64,000 nt of DNA from NCBI RefSeq assembly GCF_003386165.1, contig NZ_QRDV01000003.1, positions 1 to 64,000 of the forward strand. Direction: 5' to 3'. Made by a program: the position numbers and the translations under genes. The DNA comes from Winogradskyella eximia (GTDB lineage Bacteria > Bacteroidota > Bacteroidia > Flavobacteriales > Flavobacteriaceae). The notes beneath the pieces are model-generated. The model was not told the origin of the DNA. It searched no databases and worked only from the letters and a program-made list of their open reading frames with translations. This document shows positions 45,878 through 52,136 of this stretch, one piece after another; position 1 is the stretch's first letter, and each line of letters begins with the position of its first letter.

Positions 45878-46816
45878 CTATAATAGTTTAGATAAAATAT
45901 CGATATTGTCAGGCAATCTTCCTACATTTTGAAGTTTTAAAGCTGCTAATTGTAAAGCGACTTCTAAACATTCTTTTGTTGGTTTTTCTTTTATATAAGC
46001 AAACAAAAATCCTGACCAAAATGCATCACCAGCTCCAGTTGCATCCATAACATTTTCAACTTTAATTGCTGGCATCTGAATAGTTTCTTTTTCTTTTTCG
46101 GCAAGTTTAACCCCTTTGCTTCCTAATGTTAAACATATTGTATCAACACCTTCATTATGAAAAAAATCAAAGATTTCGCTATGAGGCAATGTTCTCCCAA
46201 AAAGTCGTAACATATCATCTTCGCTAATTTTAATTAAAGGATTAAATTTACAATAAGCTTTAATTATACTTAGCGCTTCTTCTTTATTTTCCCAAAGTTC
46301 ATCTGCATAATTAATGTCTATACTTAATTGGCAACCTAAATTAAAGGCTTCTTCTGCCTTTTTTAAAATAGTTGTTTGCGCTGGATTTTTACTCAGTGCA
46401 AAACAAGTAGTGTGAAAAATATTTGTTACCGATAATAATTCTGTTGGAATTTGGCTTTCTGAGATACGATAATCCGCTTCTCGATAAGGTATAAAATCTG
46501 GCGTACTTTGAGTTCTCGATACAAATATGACACTAGTTGGCGTTTTATCAATTTTAAAAATCGATTCTGTATTAACACCAACTTCATTTAATCGTTCAAA
46601 AACGTATTCACCAAAGCCATCATCACCAATACTGGCTACCATTCTAGAATTTAACCCCAACCTTGCCGAATTCATGGCCACATTTGTGGGTGAACCTCCT
46701 AAATACCTGTGATAATCTCTTGTGTTGTTAATAAGAACATCTTTTTGATGCCCGATAAAATCAATCAATACCTCTCCAACACACAAGATATCTATATTTT
46801 TAATACTATTTTTCAC
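45878..46816 (-). CDS. PfkB family carbohydrate kinase (fructokinase-type)
   Basis: 312 residues. PfkB signatures are GGSPTNVAMNSARLG near the N-terminus and the catalytic/ATP motif DATGAGDAFWSGFLFAY near 255-271, where the last Asp is the catalytic base. The start is GTG at 46816; no ATG lies nearby in frame before the conserved ILCVGEVLIDF. It would phosphorylate the fructose released by sucrose phosphorylase. A ribokinase- or KDG kinase-like specificity cannot be excluded from sequence alone. It is 14 bases after the transporter gene. Confidence 0.88.
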   Translation of the reverse strand: MKNSIKNIDILCVGEVLIDFIGHQKDVLINNTRDYHRYLGGSPTNVAMNSARLGLNSRMVASIGDDGFGEYVFERLNEVGVNTESIFKIDKTPTSVIFVSRTQSTPDFIPYREADYRISESQIPTELLSVTNIFHTTCFALSKNPAQTTILKKAEEAFNLGCQLSIDINYADELWENKEEALSIIKAYCKFNPLIKISEDDMLRLFGRTLPHSEIFDFFHNEGVDTICLTLGSKGVKLAEKEKETIQMPAIKVENVMDATGAGDAFWSGFLFAYIKEKPTKECLEVALQLAALKLQNVGRLPDNIDILSKLL

Positions 46817-46830
46817 AATAAATTTAATTC

Positions 46831-48165
46831 TTAATTATCAATAAGATTTTCTTGTACATAATCTTTTGGCTGCTTAAGGCGAATTGCTAATACTCCCGCA
46901 ATAAGAAAAAATACTCCTCCAAATAATATCGCATTTACAGCACTATTATTTAAAAGATTCTTTACTATAGGTCCAAATGTTACAGTTTGTATTCCCATTG
47001 GAATTACTATCATCATATTTAAAATCCCCATATAAACACCTCGTCTCTCTTGAGGTACAATTTTAGAAACCATAGTATATGGAATTCCCATCATTGCCGC
47101 CCAACCAATCCCAAATAAAATCATTGGTATTAGCACTAACATTGGATCTTTTATATACGGAATTGATAACATCGCTATTCCTGTTAAGAACAGACTTAAG
47201 ACATACACTTTTTTTCCACCCCATTTTAAAGCTAAAGGCACTAATGCTAATGCAAAAACTATAGTGGAAATATTATAAGTTGTATTCATTTTAGCCGCCT
47301 GACTCAATGCTTGTGATTTATTAAAACCAATACTTTCCTCAAACATTGGCGAAATAAATTGCCAATATATAAAAAGCGCATACCATTGAAATAAATAAAC
47401 ACCTGCCAGCTTCCACATAAATTTTGGCATATCCTTAATAGCTTCCCATATTTCTATGAAAGGAGTTTGTACACGTTGTAAAAAAGGTAAGGCTTTGTGT
47501 TTTTTAATTTCTTCTAACTCTTCAGCTTGTGGAGGAATTTCTGGTGTTTTTAAAACTGACCAAAGTATGGTAATCACGGATAAAATTGCACCTATAAAAA
47601 ATGAATAGTATAACCAATTAGGAATAGATTTTACCGTTTCATCAACAATTTCTTGTCCTCCAAACCAATCTTGAAAAAGAAAAATAGAAGCATTGGCTAA
47701 AACGATACCAGCACCAACAAATAAACTTTGCATCTGATATCCAAAACTTAATTGCTTAGTTGGTAATTTATCTCCAACAAAAGCTCTATAAGGCTCCATT
47801 GCCATATTATTACCAACATCTAAAATCCATAATAAACCAACTGCAAACCATAATGTTGGACTATAAGGAAAAGCAAACAAACACAAACTACCTATAAGCG
47901 CACCTATTAAGAAAAAGGGTTTTCTTCTTCCCCAACGTGGCGACCATGTCTTATCTGAAATTGCACCAATTATAGGTTGTACAATTAAACCTGTTACAGG
48001 TCCTGCTAAGTTTAATAAAGGCAAATCTTCTGGCAGTGCTCCTAAAAAAGAAAAAATAGGATTAACTGCTGTTTGTTGCAAACCAAAACTGAACTGAATT
48101 CCAAGGAATCCTACATTCATATTAAAAATTTGCCAGAAACTTAAACGTGGTTTTTTCTTTAACAT
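46831..48165 (-). CDS. MFS sugar/proton symporter, SLC45/SUT (sucrose transporter)-like
   Basis: 444 residues and 12 predicted transmembrane helices. It has the SUT/SLC45 loop signature: PIIGAISDKTWSPRWGRRKP, compared with the RxGRRRPF loop of plant sucrose carriers. DVGNNMAMEPYRAFVGD in helix 4 is also typical of the family. A second loop (TPFIEIWEAIKDMPKFMWKL) marks the mid-protein cytoplasmic region. It would bring sucrose, or a related disaccharide, across the inner membrane with protons. It is followed directly by fructokinase and sucrose phosphorylase. Confidence 0.85.
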   Translation of the reverse strand: MLKKKPRLSFWQIFNMNVGFLGIQFSFGLQQTAVNPIFSFLGALPEDLPLLNLAGPVTGLIVQPIIGAISDKTWSPRWGRRKPFFLIGALIGSLCLFAFPYSPTLWFAVGLLWILDVGNNMAMEPYRAFVGDKLPTKQLSFGYQMQSLFVGAGIVLANASIFLFQDWFGGQEIVDETVKSIPNWLYYSFFIGAILSVITILWSVLKTPEIPPQAEELEEIKKHKALPFLQRVQTPFIEIWEAIKDMPKFMWKLAGVYLFQWYALFIYWQFISPMFEESIGFNKSQALSQAAKMNTTYNISTIVFALALVPLALKWGGKKVYVLSLFLTGIAMLSIPYIKDPMLVLIPMILFGIGWAAMMGIPYTMVSKIVPQERRGVYMGILNMMIVIPMGIQTVTFGPIVKNLLNNSAVNAILFGGVFFLIAGVLAIRLKQPKDYVQENLIDN

Positions 48166-48312: not shown

Positions 48313-50943
48313 TTAAAATTTATATTGAAGAGACAATGTAGAAGAACGACCACTAATTGACCTCGCTCTTACTAAACGATTATTACCGTATGCACCATCC
48401 CCATTTCCTTCAACCTCTGTAATACCAACGGTATCAAATAAGTTGTTTACACTTAACACTAAAGATAAACCTTCTGTTAAACCAGCTCTACCGATTAAAT
48501 TAAAATATGCATATCCTGGCATAACTAAATCATTATCATCTTGAGCGTAAGACTTTGAGGTACCTAATACACTTAAACCTACAGAGTGCTTACTATTATT
48601 ACCAAAATTATATGACGGTGCTAAATTATAAACAAAGTCTGCCTGTCTTCTTGGAGTATTGCCTTTGTTATCTCCACCATCAATTTCAGCTTTAGTCCAA
48701 GTTAAAGAACCATTGACAGAAAAATTATTACCAAAAGCTAAAGCTGTTTCTGCTTCAATACCTATGGCTTTAAATGGATTACCTACTTCTCTATTTAATT
48801 CATTACTTAATCCTTCTTCTGTTTTACTCATAAAACCTGTTAGATTAAGTACTCCATTTTTAAGTCTTTTCTTATAACCTGCTTCAAATTGTGACAATTC
48901 ATCAAATTGAACGTCTGCTTTACCATCTGTACCATAACTGTTTCGATCTGCTGCTCTACCTGACGCACCTGAACTATATCTTGCAAATACGGCCGAACCA
49001 TCATTAATTTTATAATTTAAACCCGCAGAATATGAAACAAAATTATAATCATCATTAATAATTTGACCGTCTGCACCTGATATAATTGGTACAACTTGCT
49101 CAATACCTTGTATTATACCATCCCCATTATAATCATACTCGTCTTGGCTTGTTGGTCCAGCTGCTATGTTACCATTTACTTTAACGTTCTCAAAACGTAC
49201 ACTTCCATCAAAATTTAATTTATCAGTAATATCAGCATCAACACCAACGTAAGGAGAGTTTACTGTATGTACTGTATTGTATTTACGTTGACAACAGTTA
49301 CCCCAAACCGGAGTACCGTAAGAAAATTGGCCGTTTCTTGAAAAACCATCAAAATCAGCTAGTCTAGCTTCTCCGCCTCCCTTAACCTCAGAAAGAAAAG
49401 AGCTCCATTGCCATCCAATTTTAGTGTTTTGAGTGGCCGTAAATAAACCAGCAGTAACACCAACGTTATCACCAAGCTTTTTAGACACTTTTACATCACT
49501 AAAAAAATTACTTAAATCTTCTACTGTTACATCAAACATATGAATAATTTGAGCCAAATCATTTGAAGGATTAAAAGCTTCTCTAGCACCATCTGCATAA
49601 ACTAATGGTTCAGCACCAGCTCCTGCAGCATCTCTTGCCATTGCTTCAATTTCAGCAACTGTACCAACAGCAGCAGTAAATGGGGCAACCCATTGTCCGC
49701 TATTGCTAGAGTATCTTGCTTTTCCTGATAATTTCCAATCGTTAGGTAAACCAAATGAAAATTCAGCTCCTAAAGATTTTGAGATTGGGTTATTACCATT
49801 TCTAACATCATTCGTGTGATTTTCCCCAGTAAAAGGAGATGTACCAGCGCTTTGTTGCAAATATGCTGAATGTGCAGAATCTGAAGTAATATCAAATCCT
49901 GGAAGATTAGAAAAAGTAGGATCATCATTACCACCTTCTAATAACATTGGCATTGGTAAATACATTACTGACTTGTCATTTAAAAATTTCGCATAAACAC
50001 GCACATAACCACTGTCAAATCTTTTTGTAATATTTGCTTTAAACTGACCACCTTTGTTTCCTTGGTATCCAATTTCTCTTGGCCCTTCACCATTTCTCAT
50101 AAAACCACCTAGATGATAAGAAAGTCCATTACCTAATGGCATTCCGTATTCAAAATCTAATCTACTAGTTTGATAATCTAAACCAAATGTAGTCGCTATT
50201 GAACCGCCTTCAGTAGTACCTGTTTTACTAATCATATTAATGATACCTGCTGGACCATTAGATGTTTGTGTAGATGCTGAACCACCTCTTATAGCTTCAA
50301 CTCTACCAATGTTAGAGTCAATTCTTAAAAAGTTATCAGAATTTCCAAAAGACGTATCACCAAATAAATTTAATGGCAAGCCATCTTCTTGAATTTGAAA
50401 ATATCTTGACCCTCCAGAAGAAACTGGAACTCCACGAACATTAAAGTTAGCGTTTCCTTCACCACCCGAAGATTCTGCACGTATACCTGGAATATTTCTA
50501 AAAAGCTCACCTGCACTTCTTGGTGCTGCTTGCTCTATAAGTTTAGCATCCATTGTAGAGACAGATACACTTGATTCTAATTTAGATTTAGGGTTTACAA
50601 CTCCTGTTATTACCACTTGATCTAAAGATTCAGAATCTTCTGCCATTATAACATCTACAGTAACATCAGCACCATCTATAGTGACTTCTTTTTTAAATGT
50701 TGCAAAACCGAGATACGAAGCTACTAAAGTATAAGTTCCGTTTTCAATATTTGTAATTACATAATTACCATCAAAATCAGAAACAGCACCTTTAGTTGTA
50801 CCTTCTATAATTACATTAACACCTAATAAAGGCATACCTTCTGTATCCTTTACACTACCAGAGACACTACTTTGTGCAGATACCATGACAGTAATCATGG
50901 TAAAAAGTAAAAGTAAACTCCACTTGTTTTTAATTGATTTCAT
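48313..50943 (-). CDS. TonB-dependent outer-membrane receptor (sugar uptake, no SusD partner)
   Basis: 876 residues. Residues 1-23 are a signal peptide ending VSAQ. A CarboxypepD_reg domain spans about 25-110 (SGSVKDTEGMPLLGVNVIIE, then VSDFDGNYVI). The plug domain is at about 118-235 (VVITGVVNPKSKLESSVSVS, NFNVRGVPVSSGG, EAIRGGSASTQTSNGPAGII). A 22-strand-type barrel fills the rest and ends STLSLQYKF. No SusD-like lipoprotein gene is nearby, so this is not a classical SusCD pair but a stand-alone receptor. Its place in the operon and the divergent LacI gene suggest that it imports sucrose or a similar oligosaccharide. The promoter region 50944-51107 has two operator palindromes. Confidence 0.88.
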   Translation of the reverse strand: MKSIKNKWSLLLLFTMITVMVSAQSSVSGSVKDTEGMPLLGVNVIIEGTTKGAVSDFDGNYVITNIENGTYTLVASYLGFATFKKEVTIDGADVTVDVIMAEDSESLDQVVITGVVNPKSKLESSVSVSTMDAKLIEQAAPRSAGELFRNIPGIRAESSGGEGNANFNVRGVPVSSGGSRYFQIQEDGLPLNLFGDTSFGNSDNFLRIDSNIGRVEAIRGGSASTQTSNGPAGIINMISKTGTTEGGSIATTFGLDYQTSRLDFEYGMPLGNGLSYHLGGFMRNGEGPREIGYQGNKGGQFKANITKRFDSGYVRVYAKFLNDKSVMYLPMPMLLEGGNDDPTFSNLPGFDITSDSAHSAYLQQSAGTSPFTGENHTNDVRNGNNPISKSLGAEFSFGLPNDWKLSGKARYSSNSGQWVAPFTAAVGTVAEIEAMARDAAGAGAEPLVYADGAREAFNPSNDLAQIIHMFDVTVEDLSNFFSDVKVSKKLGDNVGVTAGLFTATQNTKIGWQWSSFLSEVKGGGEARLADFDGFSRNGQFSYGTPVWGNCCQRKYNTVHTVNSPYVGVDADITDKLNFDGSVRFENVKVNGNIAAGPTSQDEYDYNGDGIIQGIEQVVPIISGADGQIINDDYNFVSYSAGLNYKINDGSAVFARYSSGASGRAADRNSYGTDGKADVQFDELSQFEAGYKKRLKNGVLNLTGFMSKTEEGLSNELNREVGNPFKAIGIEAETALAFGNNFSVNGSLTWTKAEIDGGDNKGNTPRRQADFVYNLAPSYNFGNNSKHSVGLSVLGTSKSYAQDDNDLVMPGYAYFNLIGRAGLTEGLSLVLSVNNLFDTVGITEVEGNGDGAYGNNRLVRARSISGRSSTLSLQYKF

Positions 50944-51027
50944 TTTTTGTTGTTGTTTAATTAGTATTATTATCGTTGATTATTTATCGAATTTACATTT
51001 AAGATGCTAAAAAAATGAAAAATTCAT

Positions 51028-51045
51028 ATCGAAAACGTTTTCGAT
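51028..51045. promoter_or_regulatory. LacI-family operator O1
   Basis: A perfect 18-bp palindrome, ATCGAAAACGTTTTCGAT, with the central CG typical of LacI-family operators. Its centre is 20 bp, about two DNA turns, from operator O2. It would cover the -33 region of the receptor promoter. Confidence 0.85.
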
Positions 51046-51049
51046 TTAA

Positions 51050-51063
51050 CGAAAACGTTTTCG
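51050..51063. promoter_or_regulatory. LacI-family operator O2
   Basis: A perfect 14-bp palindrome, CGAAAACGTTTTCG, the same core as O1 but with non-matching outer flanks. It overlaps the expected -33 region of the lacI promoter, consistent with autoregulation. Binding of two dimers on one DNA face is likely given the 20-bp spacing. Confidence 0.85.
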
Positions 51064-51107
51064 ATTTCAAACTTTCTTCATATTTTTAGCATCTTAAATT
51101 AAACAAA

Positions 51108-52136
51108 ATGAATCCTGTAACATTAAAACAAATAGCCGAAACTCTTGATATTTCTATCGCAACCGTTTCTAAAGCTTTAAAAGATTATCCAGATGTAAGT
51201 AAGAAAACGAAACTATTAGTTAAAGAAACAGCGGAACTTCTGAATTACAAGCCCAATGCATTTGCTGTTAATCTCAGAACTAAGGAATCAAAAACTATCG
51301 GTCTTATAATTCCGGAAGTCGTACATCATTTTTTTTCAAGTGTTATAAAAGGAATCATTGCTAGGGCTGAAAAAAAAGGATATTTGGTTATTATTCTGCA
51401 GTCAAGTGAATCTTACGAAATGGAAAAAAAGCAGTTAGATTTATTGTTAAGTAAGAGAGTAGACGGCATTCTTATGTCCCTAGCTAATGGTACGGCTAAT
51501 TTTAAACATCTTGATGATTTAATATCCCAAGAAGTACCTCTTGTAATGTTTGATAAAATTGCCAAAATAGTAAATTGCTCAAAAGTTATAATTAATGATA
51601 GGATGGCTGCGTACACGGCAACTAAATATTTAATTGATTCTGGCTGTAAACGCATAGCACATTTTAGAGGACCTCTATTGCCTCAAAATTCAATAGATAG
51701 GTTTCTGGGTTATAAAAAAGCATTATCAGATAACAATATCCCGTATGATCCTTCTCTAGTTTATATTTGCGAATGTGGCGAAAGGAGTTTTGAAGAAGGA
51801 AAGGAAAATGCGCATAAATTATTAGAGGATCATAATGATGTCGATGGCATTTTTATTAATACAGATTTGGTAGCCATTGGAGCTATAACAGAATTTCATA
51901 GAATTGGTGTTAAAATTCCTGAGGATATATCGATTGTTGGTTTTAGTAATTGGTTCATGTCTTCAGTAATATCTCCAACATTGACTACAATTGATCAACC
52001 AGGTTATGAAATGGGTAAGGAAGCCTTCAAACTTTTATATAAAGAAATTAAAAGACGAAAGGAAAATTTACCAATAAAATTTAAAACCGTAGAGTTAGAA
52101 ACAAAACTCATTAAAAGAGCATCAACTAGAAATTAA
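51108..52136 (+). CDS. LacI family transcriptional regulator of the sucrose locus
   Basis: 342 residues. The HTH and hinge are at about 1-60: [20 protein letters not shown], then [14 protein letters not shown], which inserts in the minor groove at the operator centre. The periplasmic-binding-protein-like effector domain covers about 62-335 ([46 protein letters not shown]). It is divergent from the receptor and probably represses it and itself by binding O1 and O2. The effector is likely sucrose, fructose or a phosphate ester, which the sequence does not settle. Its stop shares TTAA with the queG stop. Confidence 0.92.

Follow-up and report, generated by a model that had tools for sequence, protein, structure and literature searches.

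The region between lacI and a divergent TonB receptor–MFS–kinase–sucrose phosphorylase-like operon in Winogradskyella eximia contains two identical palindromes, and its functional part is a LacI-family twin operator, unremarkable in kind but conserved in many relatives, that is probably bound cooperatively. On the best reading, the regulator concerned is SuxR/ScrR-like. A longer inverted repeat, whose two arms frame the palindrome pair in mirror fashion, is probably a recent accident of one lineage and lies outside the regulatory machinery. The explanation as a whole, in which a cooperative twin operator represses both lacI and the sucrose operon and the arms are a lineage-specific accident, is one that we hold with moderate confidence. 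All coordinates refer to the window, the 64,000-nucleotide stretch of W. eximia DNA that was analysed (Table 1).

Table 1. Genes, predicted promoter boxes, operators and mirror arms of the lacI–sucrose region
Feature	Position	Strand	Sequence	Remarks
Sucrose phosphorylase-like enzyme, 579 aa	44126-45865	-		NCBIfam sucrose_gtfA 328.8 bits, just under the cut-off of 334.4
PfkB-family sugar kinase	45878-46816	-		Pfam PfkB; no NCBIfam cut-off reached
MFS transporter, weakly like GPH sucrose symporters	46831-48165	-		Pfam MFS_1; TIGR01301 93.7 bits (cut-off 511)
TonB-dependent receptor with CarboxypepD_reg-like domain	48313-50943	-		Pfam; below every NCBIfam cut-off listed
Predicted receptor-operon -7 box	50988-50995	-	TAAATTCG	Just outside the left arm; one mismatch to TAnnTTTG
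Left mirror arm	50997-51019		ATTTAAGATGCTAAAAAAATGAA	Falls in the receptor-promoter spacer, which is poorly conserved; W. eximia only among the loci compared
Operator 1	51030-51043		CGAAAACGTTTTCG	Exact palindrome; pair in 78/81 loci
Operator 2	51050-51063		CGAAAACGTTTTCG	Centre 20 bp from that of operator 1; predicted, from the place of the -7 box, to overlap the lacI -33 region
Right mirror arm	51077-51099		TTCATATTTTTAGCATCTTAAAT	Predicted start and -7 box of lacI fall within it
Predicted lacI -7 box	51081-51088	+	TATTTTTA	Within the right arm; in 58/78 loci such a box stands 15-18 bp from operator 2
LacI-family regulator, 342 aa	51108-52136	+		Pfam LacI 35.9 bits (cut-off 27), Peripla_BP_3 90.1 (26.5), Peripla_BP_1 89.6 (22.2)

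A probable sucrose locus

The regulator combines an N-terminal LacI helix-turn-helix with a periplasmic-binding-protein-like ligand domain, both above the curated Pfam cut-offs, and its nearest solved structures are CcpA and then PurR. None of the 20 cut-offs for named NCBIfam LacI equivalogs (CytR, RbsR, PurR, CcpA, fruct_sucro_rep and others) was reached, the best score being 219.3 bits against 436. The gene that converges on lacI, which by eye we take to be QueG-like, overlaps it by four bases at their ends (52133-52136).

The sucrose phosphorylase-like enzyme shows strong matches to solved phosphorylases, the closest being 6s9u, a 'putative sucrose phosphorylase' (E 1.8e-204, with the match in two stretches), and no Pfam family matches it at E 0.001. 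The transporter and the kinase match named families only weakly, and the names of all three proteins rest on NCBIfam matches below their cut-offs. Because of the NCBIfam score and nearest structure of the enzyme and because of the company its gene keeps, the locus is probably one for sucrose utilisation of the sux/scr kind; in this context the PfkB-family kinase would be a fructokinase.

The Xanthomonas sux locus, as it is outlined in PMC1790865, shares with the W. eximia locus a LacI-family gene, an MFS transporter and a TonB-dependent receptor, and there the LacI-family protein SuxR represses the receptor, amylosucrase and MFS transporter locus until sucrose is present. The enzymes differ, with amylosucrase in Xanthomonas and a sucrose phosphorylase-like enzyme plus a PfkB kinase in W. 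eximia, and the two loci are likened here by gene content; that outline mentions no twin operator.

Conservation of the operator pair

The earlier note had described two palindromes with identical 14-base cores and centres 20 bp apart and had called them LacI operators. Both parts hold up: the sites are as described, and they behave as operators of this family should, with sequence, spacing and position upstream of lacI all kept in 78 of 81 orthologous loci. In this set the W. eximia locus is joined by those of the best 80 among 143 relatives of its LacI regulator; when the LacI proteins are compared, the nearest named species are Winogradskyella thalassocola, W. echinorum and W. litoriviva. 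L015-L023 (47-59% identity) were excluded from the 81-locus counts. A pair was defined as two palindrome copies with at most four mismatches in total, and 57 loci have no mismatch at all. The spacing is 20 bp in 28 loci and 21 bp in 50. Three loci are without a good pair: L085 has a diverged pair with six mismatches, L058 has two separate degenerate sites and L113 has none. These three were excluded from the promoter and symmetry counts, which therefore cover 78 loci. A further locus of the genus, beyond the 81 (L005), also has a pair 20 bp apart. More distant LacI relatives (L016, L017, L018 and L020, with 56-59% identity) carry one upstream palindrome and not a pair, CGAAAAGGTTTTCG or, in L020, CGAAAAGCTTTTCG.

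Among 397 genomes of the family, the exact pair with a spacer of 6 or 7 (5-8 were permitted) was found in 26, once per genome, while the reversed control pattern was found in 0 of the 397. The W. eximia genome has no further exact copy of the 14-mer outside this pair, and eight single sites with one mismatch lie elsewhere. With up to two mismatches allowed there are 32 sites per strand as against 128 for the reversed control, so degenerate operator matches are not enriched in this genome. The 14-mer is an even palindrome with a central CG that stands upstream of lacI and the neighbouring sugar genes. Our best reading is that the palindromes are conserved LacI-family operators, as predicted from these sequence comparisons.

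Four of the single sites are of the one-mismatch variant CGAAAACGTTATCG (contig positions C1 5010, C1 1043792, C4 78403 and C8 232613) and are possibly operators of another LacI-family protein of the W. eximia genome. A further one-mismatch palindrome, CTAAAACGTTTTCG, lies at C5 152018-152031 (L036 1499-1512), about 90 bp upstream of a gene resembling a glycosidase.

By title and abstract, we recognised no described operator for this locus in the literature searched; the 14-mer occurs in one paper, whose subject, as indexed, is E. coli motifs (PMC4655474). Closer parallels lie in site layout. In a survey of LacI-family regulons, the distances between sites are reported to peak at 13, 22 and 32 bp, the latter two being read as cooperative (PMC4052901). 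According to the entries for ScrR (Burkholderiales) and RafR (Enterobacteriales) in that survey, these are likewise LacI-family regulators of sugar loci, and their sites are obligatorily double, spaced by about two helical turns: none is single, and the distance is 21-22 bp as compared with 20-21 bp here; in both cases the site is an even palindrome with a central CG. The same double-site layout is found in the present loci, with the pair at 20 or 21 bp and, in the W. eximia genome, the exact 14-mer present only as a pair. Unlike ScrR and RafR, which belong to other phyla, the regulator described here is associated with -7 boxes of the flavobacterial type and with an operon headed by a TonB receptor gene, and the systems are likened by the layout of their sites and not by orthology.

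Two predicted promoters at unequal distances

Promoters of the flavobacterial phylum have a -33 element, and an operator at that position is in the usual place for autorepression. For flavobacterial sigma-A promoters, a -7 box of the form TAnnTTTG at -12 to -5 is given in PMC9723704. Exact TAnnTTTG is found 34-35 bp outward from operator 1 in 25 of 78 loci, while all other offsets from 0 to 82 yield two matches together; with one mismatch allowed and the TA kept, the box is present at 34-35 bp in 64 of 78. On the lacI side, where a box had to keep the TA and at least three letters of TTTG, one stands 15-18 bp outward from operator 2 in 58 of 78 loci. Under this rule both boxes are present in 44 of 78 loci, the operon-side box being missing in 14 and the lacI-side box in 20. 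No -33 element stands out on the operon side in the conservation profile of the loci.

If the boxes are right, lacI would start near 51093 and the receptor operon near 50983. The centre of operator 2 would then lie near -36.5 relative to the lacI start, and the centres of operators 1 and 2 near -53.5 and -73.5, respectively, relative to the operon start.

The earlier note had proposed that both transcripts arise from near-copies of one promoter and leader. The boxes do not bear this out. Mirror-image positions are occupied in only 5 of 78 loci on the operon side (15-18 bp) and in 6 of 78 on the other side, and in the left arm the counterpart of the lacI box reads TT instead of TA. Since the operon box is at 34-35 bp, the lacI box is at 15-18 bp and the left copy is without its TA, the idea of a shared promoter is unsupported and the two predicted promoters are not mirror copies. 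The left arm falls within the receptor-promoter spacer, where the profile has its least conserved stretch.

Proposed regulation

We infer the binding, its cooperativity, the effector, the transcription starts and the sign of control at the operon from sequence and comparison. The LacI-family protein encoded from 51108 would bind both operators, whose 20-bp separation corresponds to two helical turns and places them on one DNA face. Two sites so arranged suggest joint binding of two dimers, and binding would probably be by two cooperating dimers. From its predicted position over the lacI -33 region, operator 2 would allow the regulator to block its own gene by occlusion. The bound pair, with operator 1 about 53 bp upstream of the operon start, would repress the operon until sucrose or a derivative releases it. 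We favour repression of both transcripts because SuxR represses the comparable Xanthomonas locus and because the ScrR and RafR double sites are read as cooperative.

The strongest competing account, which we consider unlikely yet deserving of some weight, is that of a dual regulator that uses the same twin operator to activate the operon from about -53 and to repress its own gene. This would suit a pair that stands upstream of the operon core promoter, with the box at 34-35 bp, but over the lacI promoter, with the box at 15-18 bp in 58 of 78 loci. Dual regulators exist within the LacI family, FruR/Cra being an example mentioned in the survey (PMC4052901). Against it, SuxR is presented in PMC1790865 as a repressor on its comparable sucrose locus, and repression of both genes remains our preferred reading.

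Probable exchange of the operon between species

Comparison with W. thalassocola revealed a sharp contrast between the operon and its surroundings. The tract from 44.3 to 50.94 kb, which spans the four-gene operon, is 98.9% identical between the two species (70 differing columns), whereas the flanks are 82.2% identical on the lacI side (51.11-57.9 kb) and 74.4% identical on the other (41.95-44.1 kb); the lacI genes themselves agree at 838 of 1023 positions. The same W. eximia tract is 83.3% identical to that of W. litoriviva and 79.5% identical to that of W. echinorum. In the LacI tree, W. thalassocola joins W. litoriviva (99 SH-aLRT) and not W. eximia. Because the tract is so much more similar than flanks of 74-82% identity, and because the tree separates the W. 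thalassocola regulator from that of W. eximia, it is very likely that the operon was recently exchanged between species and that lacI stayed native. Between 50944 and 51063 the two species differ at 12 positions, after which they diverge strongly. As judged from this alignment, the boundary of the highly similar tract is either the receptor start or a point within the operator/promoter region.

Which gene comes first behind lacI varies across the 81 loci: a receptor of at least 60% identity in 42 (the 60% cut being arbitrary), a receptor below 60% in 23, an MFS gene in 11, a PfkB gene in 2 and none or another gene in 3; the receptor of L104 is partial. These labels require at least 19 changes on the LacI tree, a quick one (L042, L044, L049 and L050 are examples); when well-supported branches alone are counted, the forced minimum for the two receptor bands falls to 5 to 7 changes.

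A broader construction can be placed on the exchange. The twin operator may be a fixed socket at which sucrose-uptake operons are swapped by homologous recombination while lacI stays resident; on this view the arms would have arisen as a side effect of strand exchange, or of template switching, at that junction, and the regulator would be dual, acting unequally on the two promoters. As a single account of the locus we find this doubtful.

The mirror arms

The arms are as the earlier note had described them: an inverted repeat of 23 bases with 22 matches, the sole mismatch being at 51082, the A in the TA of the lacI -7 box TATTTTTA, opposite 51014. The box itself does lie inside the right arm. 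The centre of the arms (51048) differs from that of the operator pair (51046.5), so the block is nearly, but not exactly, symmetric, again in line with the first description.

At +1/-2 scoring, the arms have a local score of 20. Dinucleotide shuffles of the two 60-nt flanks reached this score in 0 of 3000 trials, with a maximum of 14, and a Gumbel fit gave p 1.5e-6. The 64-kb window contains no other inverted repeat with a score of at least 18 and a loop of 20-130, and a scan of 40 of the 80 related loci (358,050 bases) gave none either. Twelve block-shuffled copies of the window gave top scores of at most 15, from which extrapolation puts the chance expectation at score 20 at about 1e-3 to 3e-4 per 64 kb. 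The arms are unlikely to be random, because no shuffle, window or related-locus scan gave an equal score, though luck across a large scan could still have produced them.

That a chance likeness of two A/T-rich flanks accounts for the arms is therefore something we regard as improbable. An A/T run fills much of each arm, leaving AGCATCTTAAAT as the informative core, and at the frequency just given such repeats will occur across very many windows. Against this stand the shuffles, the empty scans of the window and of the 40 related loci, and the fact that the repeat brackets a region whose palindromes can pair.

Relatives offer nothing comparable. In the 77 other loci with an operator pair the arms are absent, with scores of at most 12 as against 20 in W. 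eximia, or at most 11 in the symmetric register. When right flanks were permuted among the 77 loci, symmetry within loci averaged 5.36 compared with 5.62 between loci (p 0.98), and a recurrent making of symmetry across species was rejected. The second strongest symmetric case is Tamlana nanhaiensis (L093), where 11 mirror-identical bases lie beside both operators; its symmetric score of 11 is within the shuffle range.

The suggestion that the region is kept symmetric by gene conversion thus fails, and relatives that keep the genes are without the symmetry, the outcome that the earlier note had named as speaking against its reading. What survives of the gene-conversion origin is a one-off event resembling template switching, which we consider the likeliest source of the arms. 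No relative examined has the arms, not even the nearest among them, so they are probably recent. They may have come about through one or more quasipalindrome template-switch events at a place where two operators can pair. In E. coli, template switching is described, in the account given in PMC7202029, as making quasipalindromes more perfect; an event of this kind would likewise make an imperfect inverted repeat more perfect in a single lineage. Compared with W. thalassocola, the left arm has three differences (51002, 51003 and 51008) and the right arm has eight. At these three left-arm positions the W. eximia letters recur in other Winogradskyella loci, singly or in pairs, so that either arm may have been the copied one, in one step or in several. 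The lacI-side flanks of close relatives, against which the ancestral state of the arms is to be judged, are strongly diverged.

As a single strand, the block is predicted to fold at -34.7 kcal/mol (z -11), with much of the folding energy coming from the mutually complementary operators. The W. eximia genome holds no second good copy of the 111-bp region, and a mobile or dispersed repeat was rejected on this ground. The next best match (E 7.5e-4 over 44 nt) was judged unrelated; it sits just upstream of another ORF, which by its look we presume to encode a malonyl-CoA acyltransferase.

A functional role for the arms within W. eximia, for instance as an additional inverted repeat that binds a protein or as a cruciform that is extruded, appears very improbable: the stable folding speaks for such a role, but one species alone has the arms, the genome lacks a second good copy of the region and the left arm occupies the least conserved part of the region. 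Least credible of all is a mirrored promoter, born of inverted duplication or held symmetric by gene conversion, that starts both transcripts from near-copies of one promoter, since the 22/23 arms and the lacI box inside the right one are countered by the 77 other pair loci without arms, the lack of general flank symmetry, the operon box held at 34-35 bp with its mirror position rarely used, and a left copy of the box without its TA.

Implications

A species-specific inverted repeat can thus pass wrongly for a functional mirrored promoter. Beneath it, a twin operator at unequal distances from two promoters emerges as a testable regulatory plan, across marine Flavobacteriaceae, of what is probably a sucrose-uptake locus. 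The locus also suggests that a whole sugar operon was recently swapped between species under a resident regulator.
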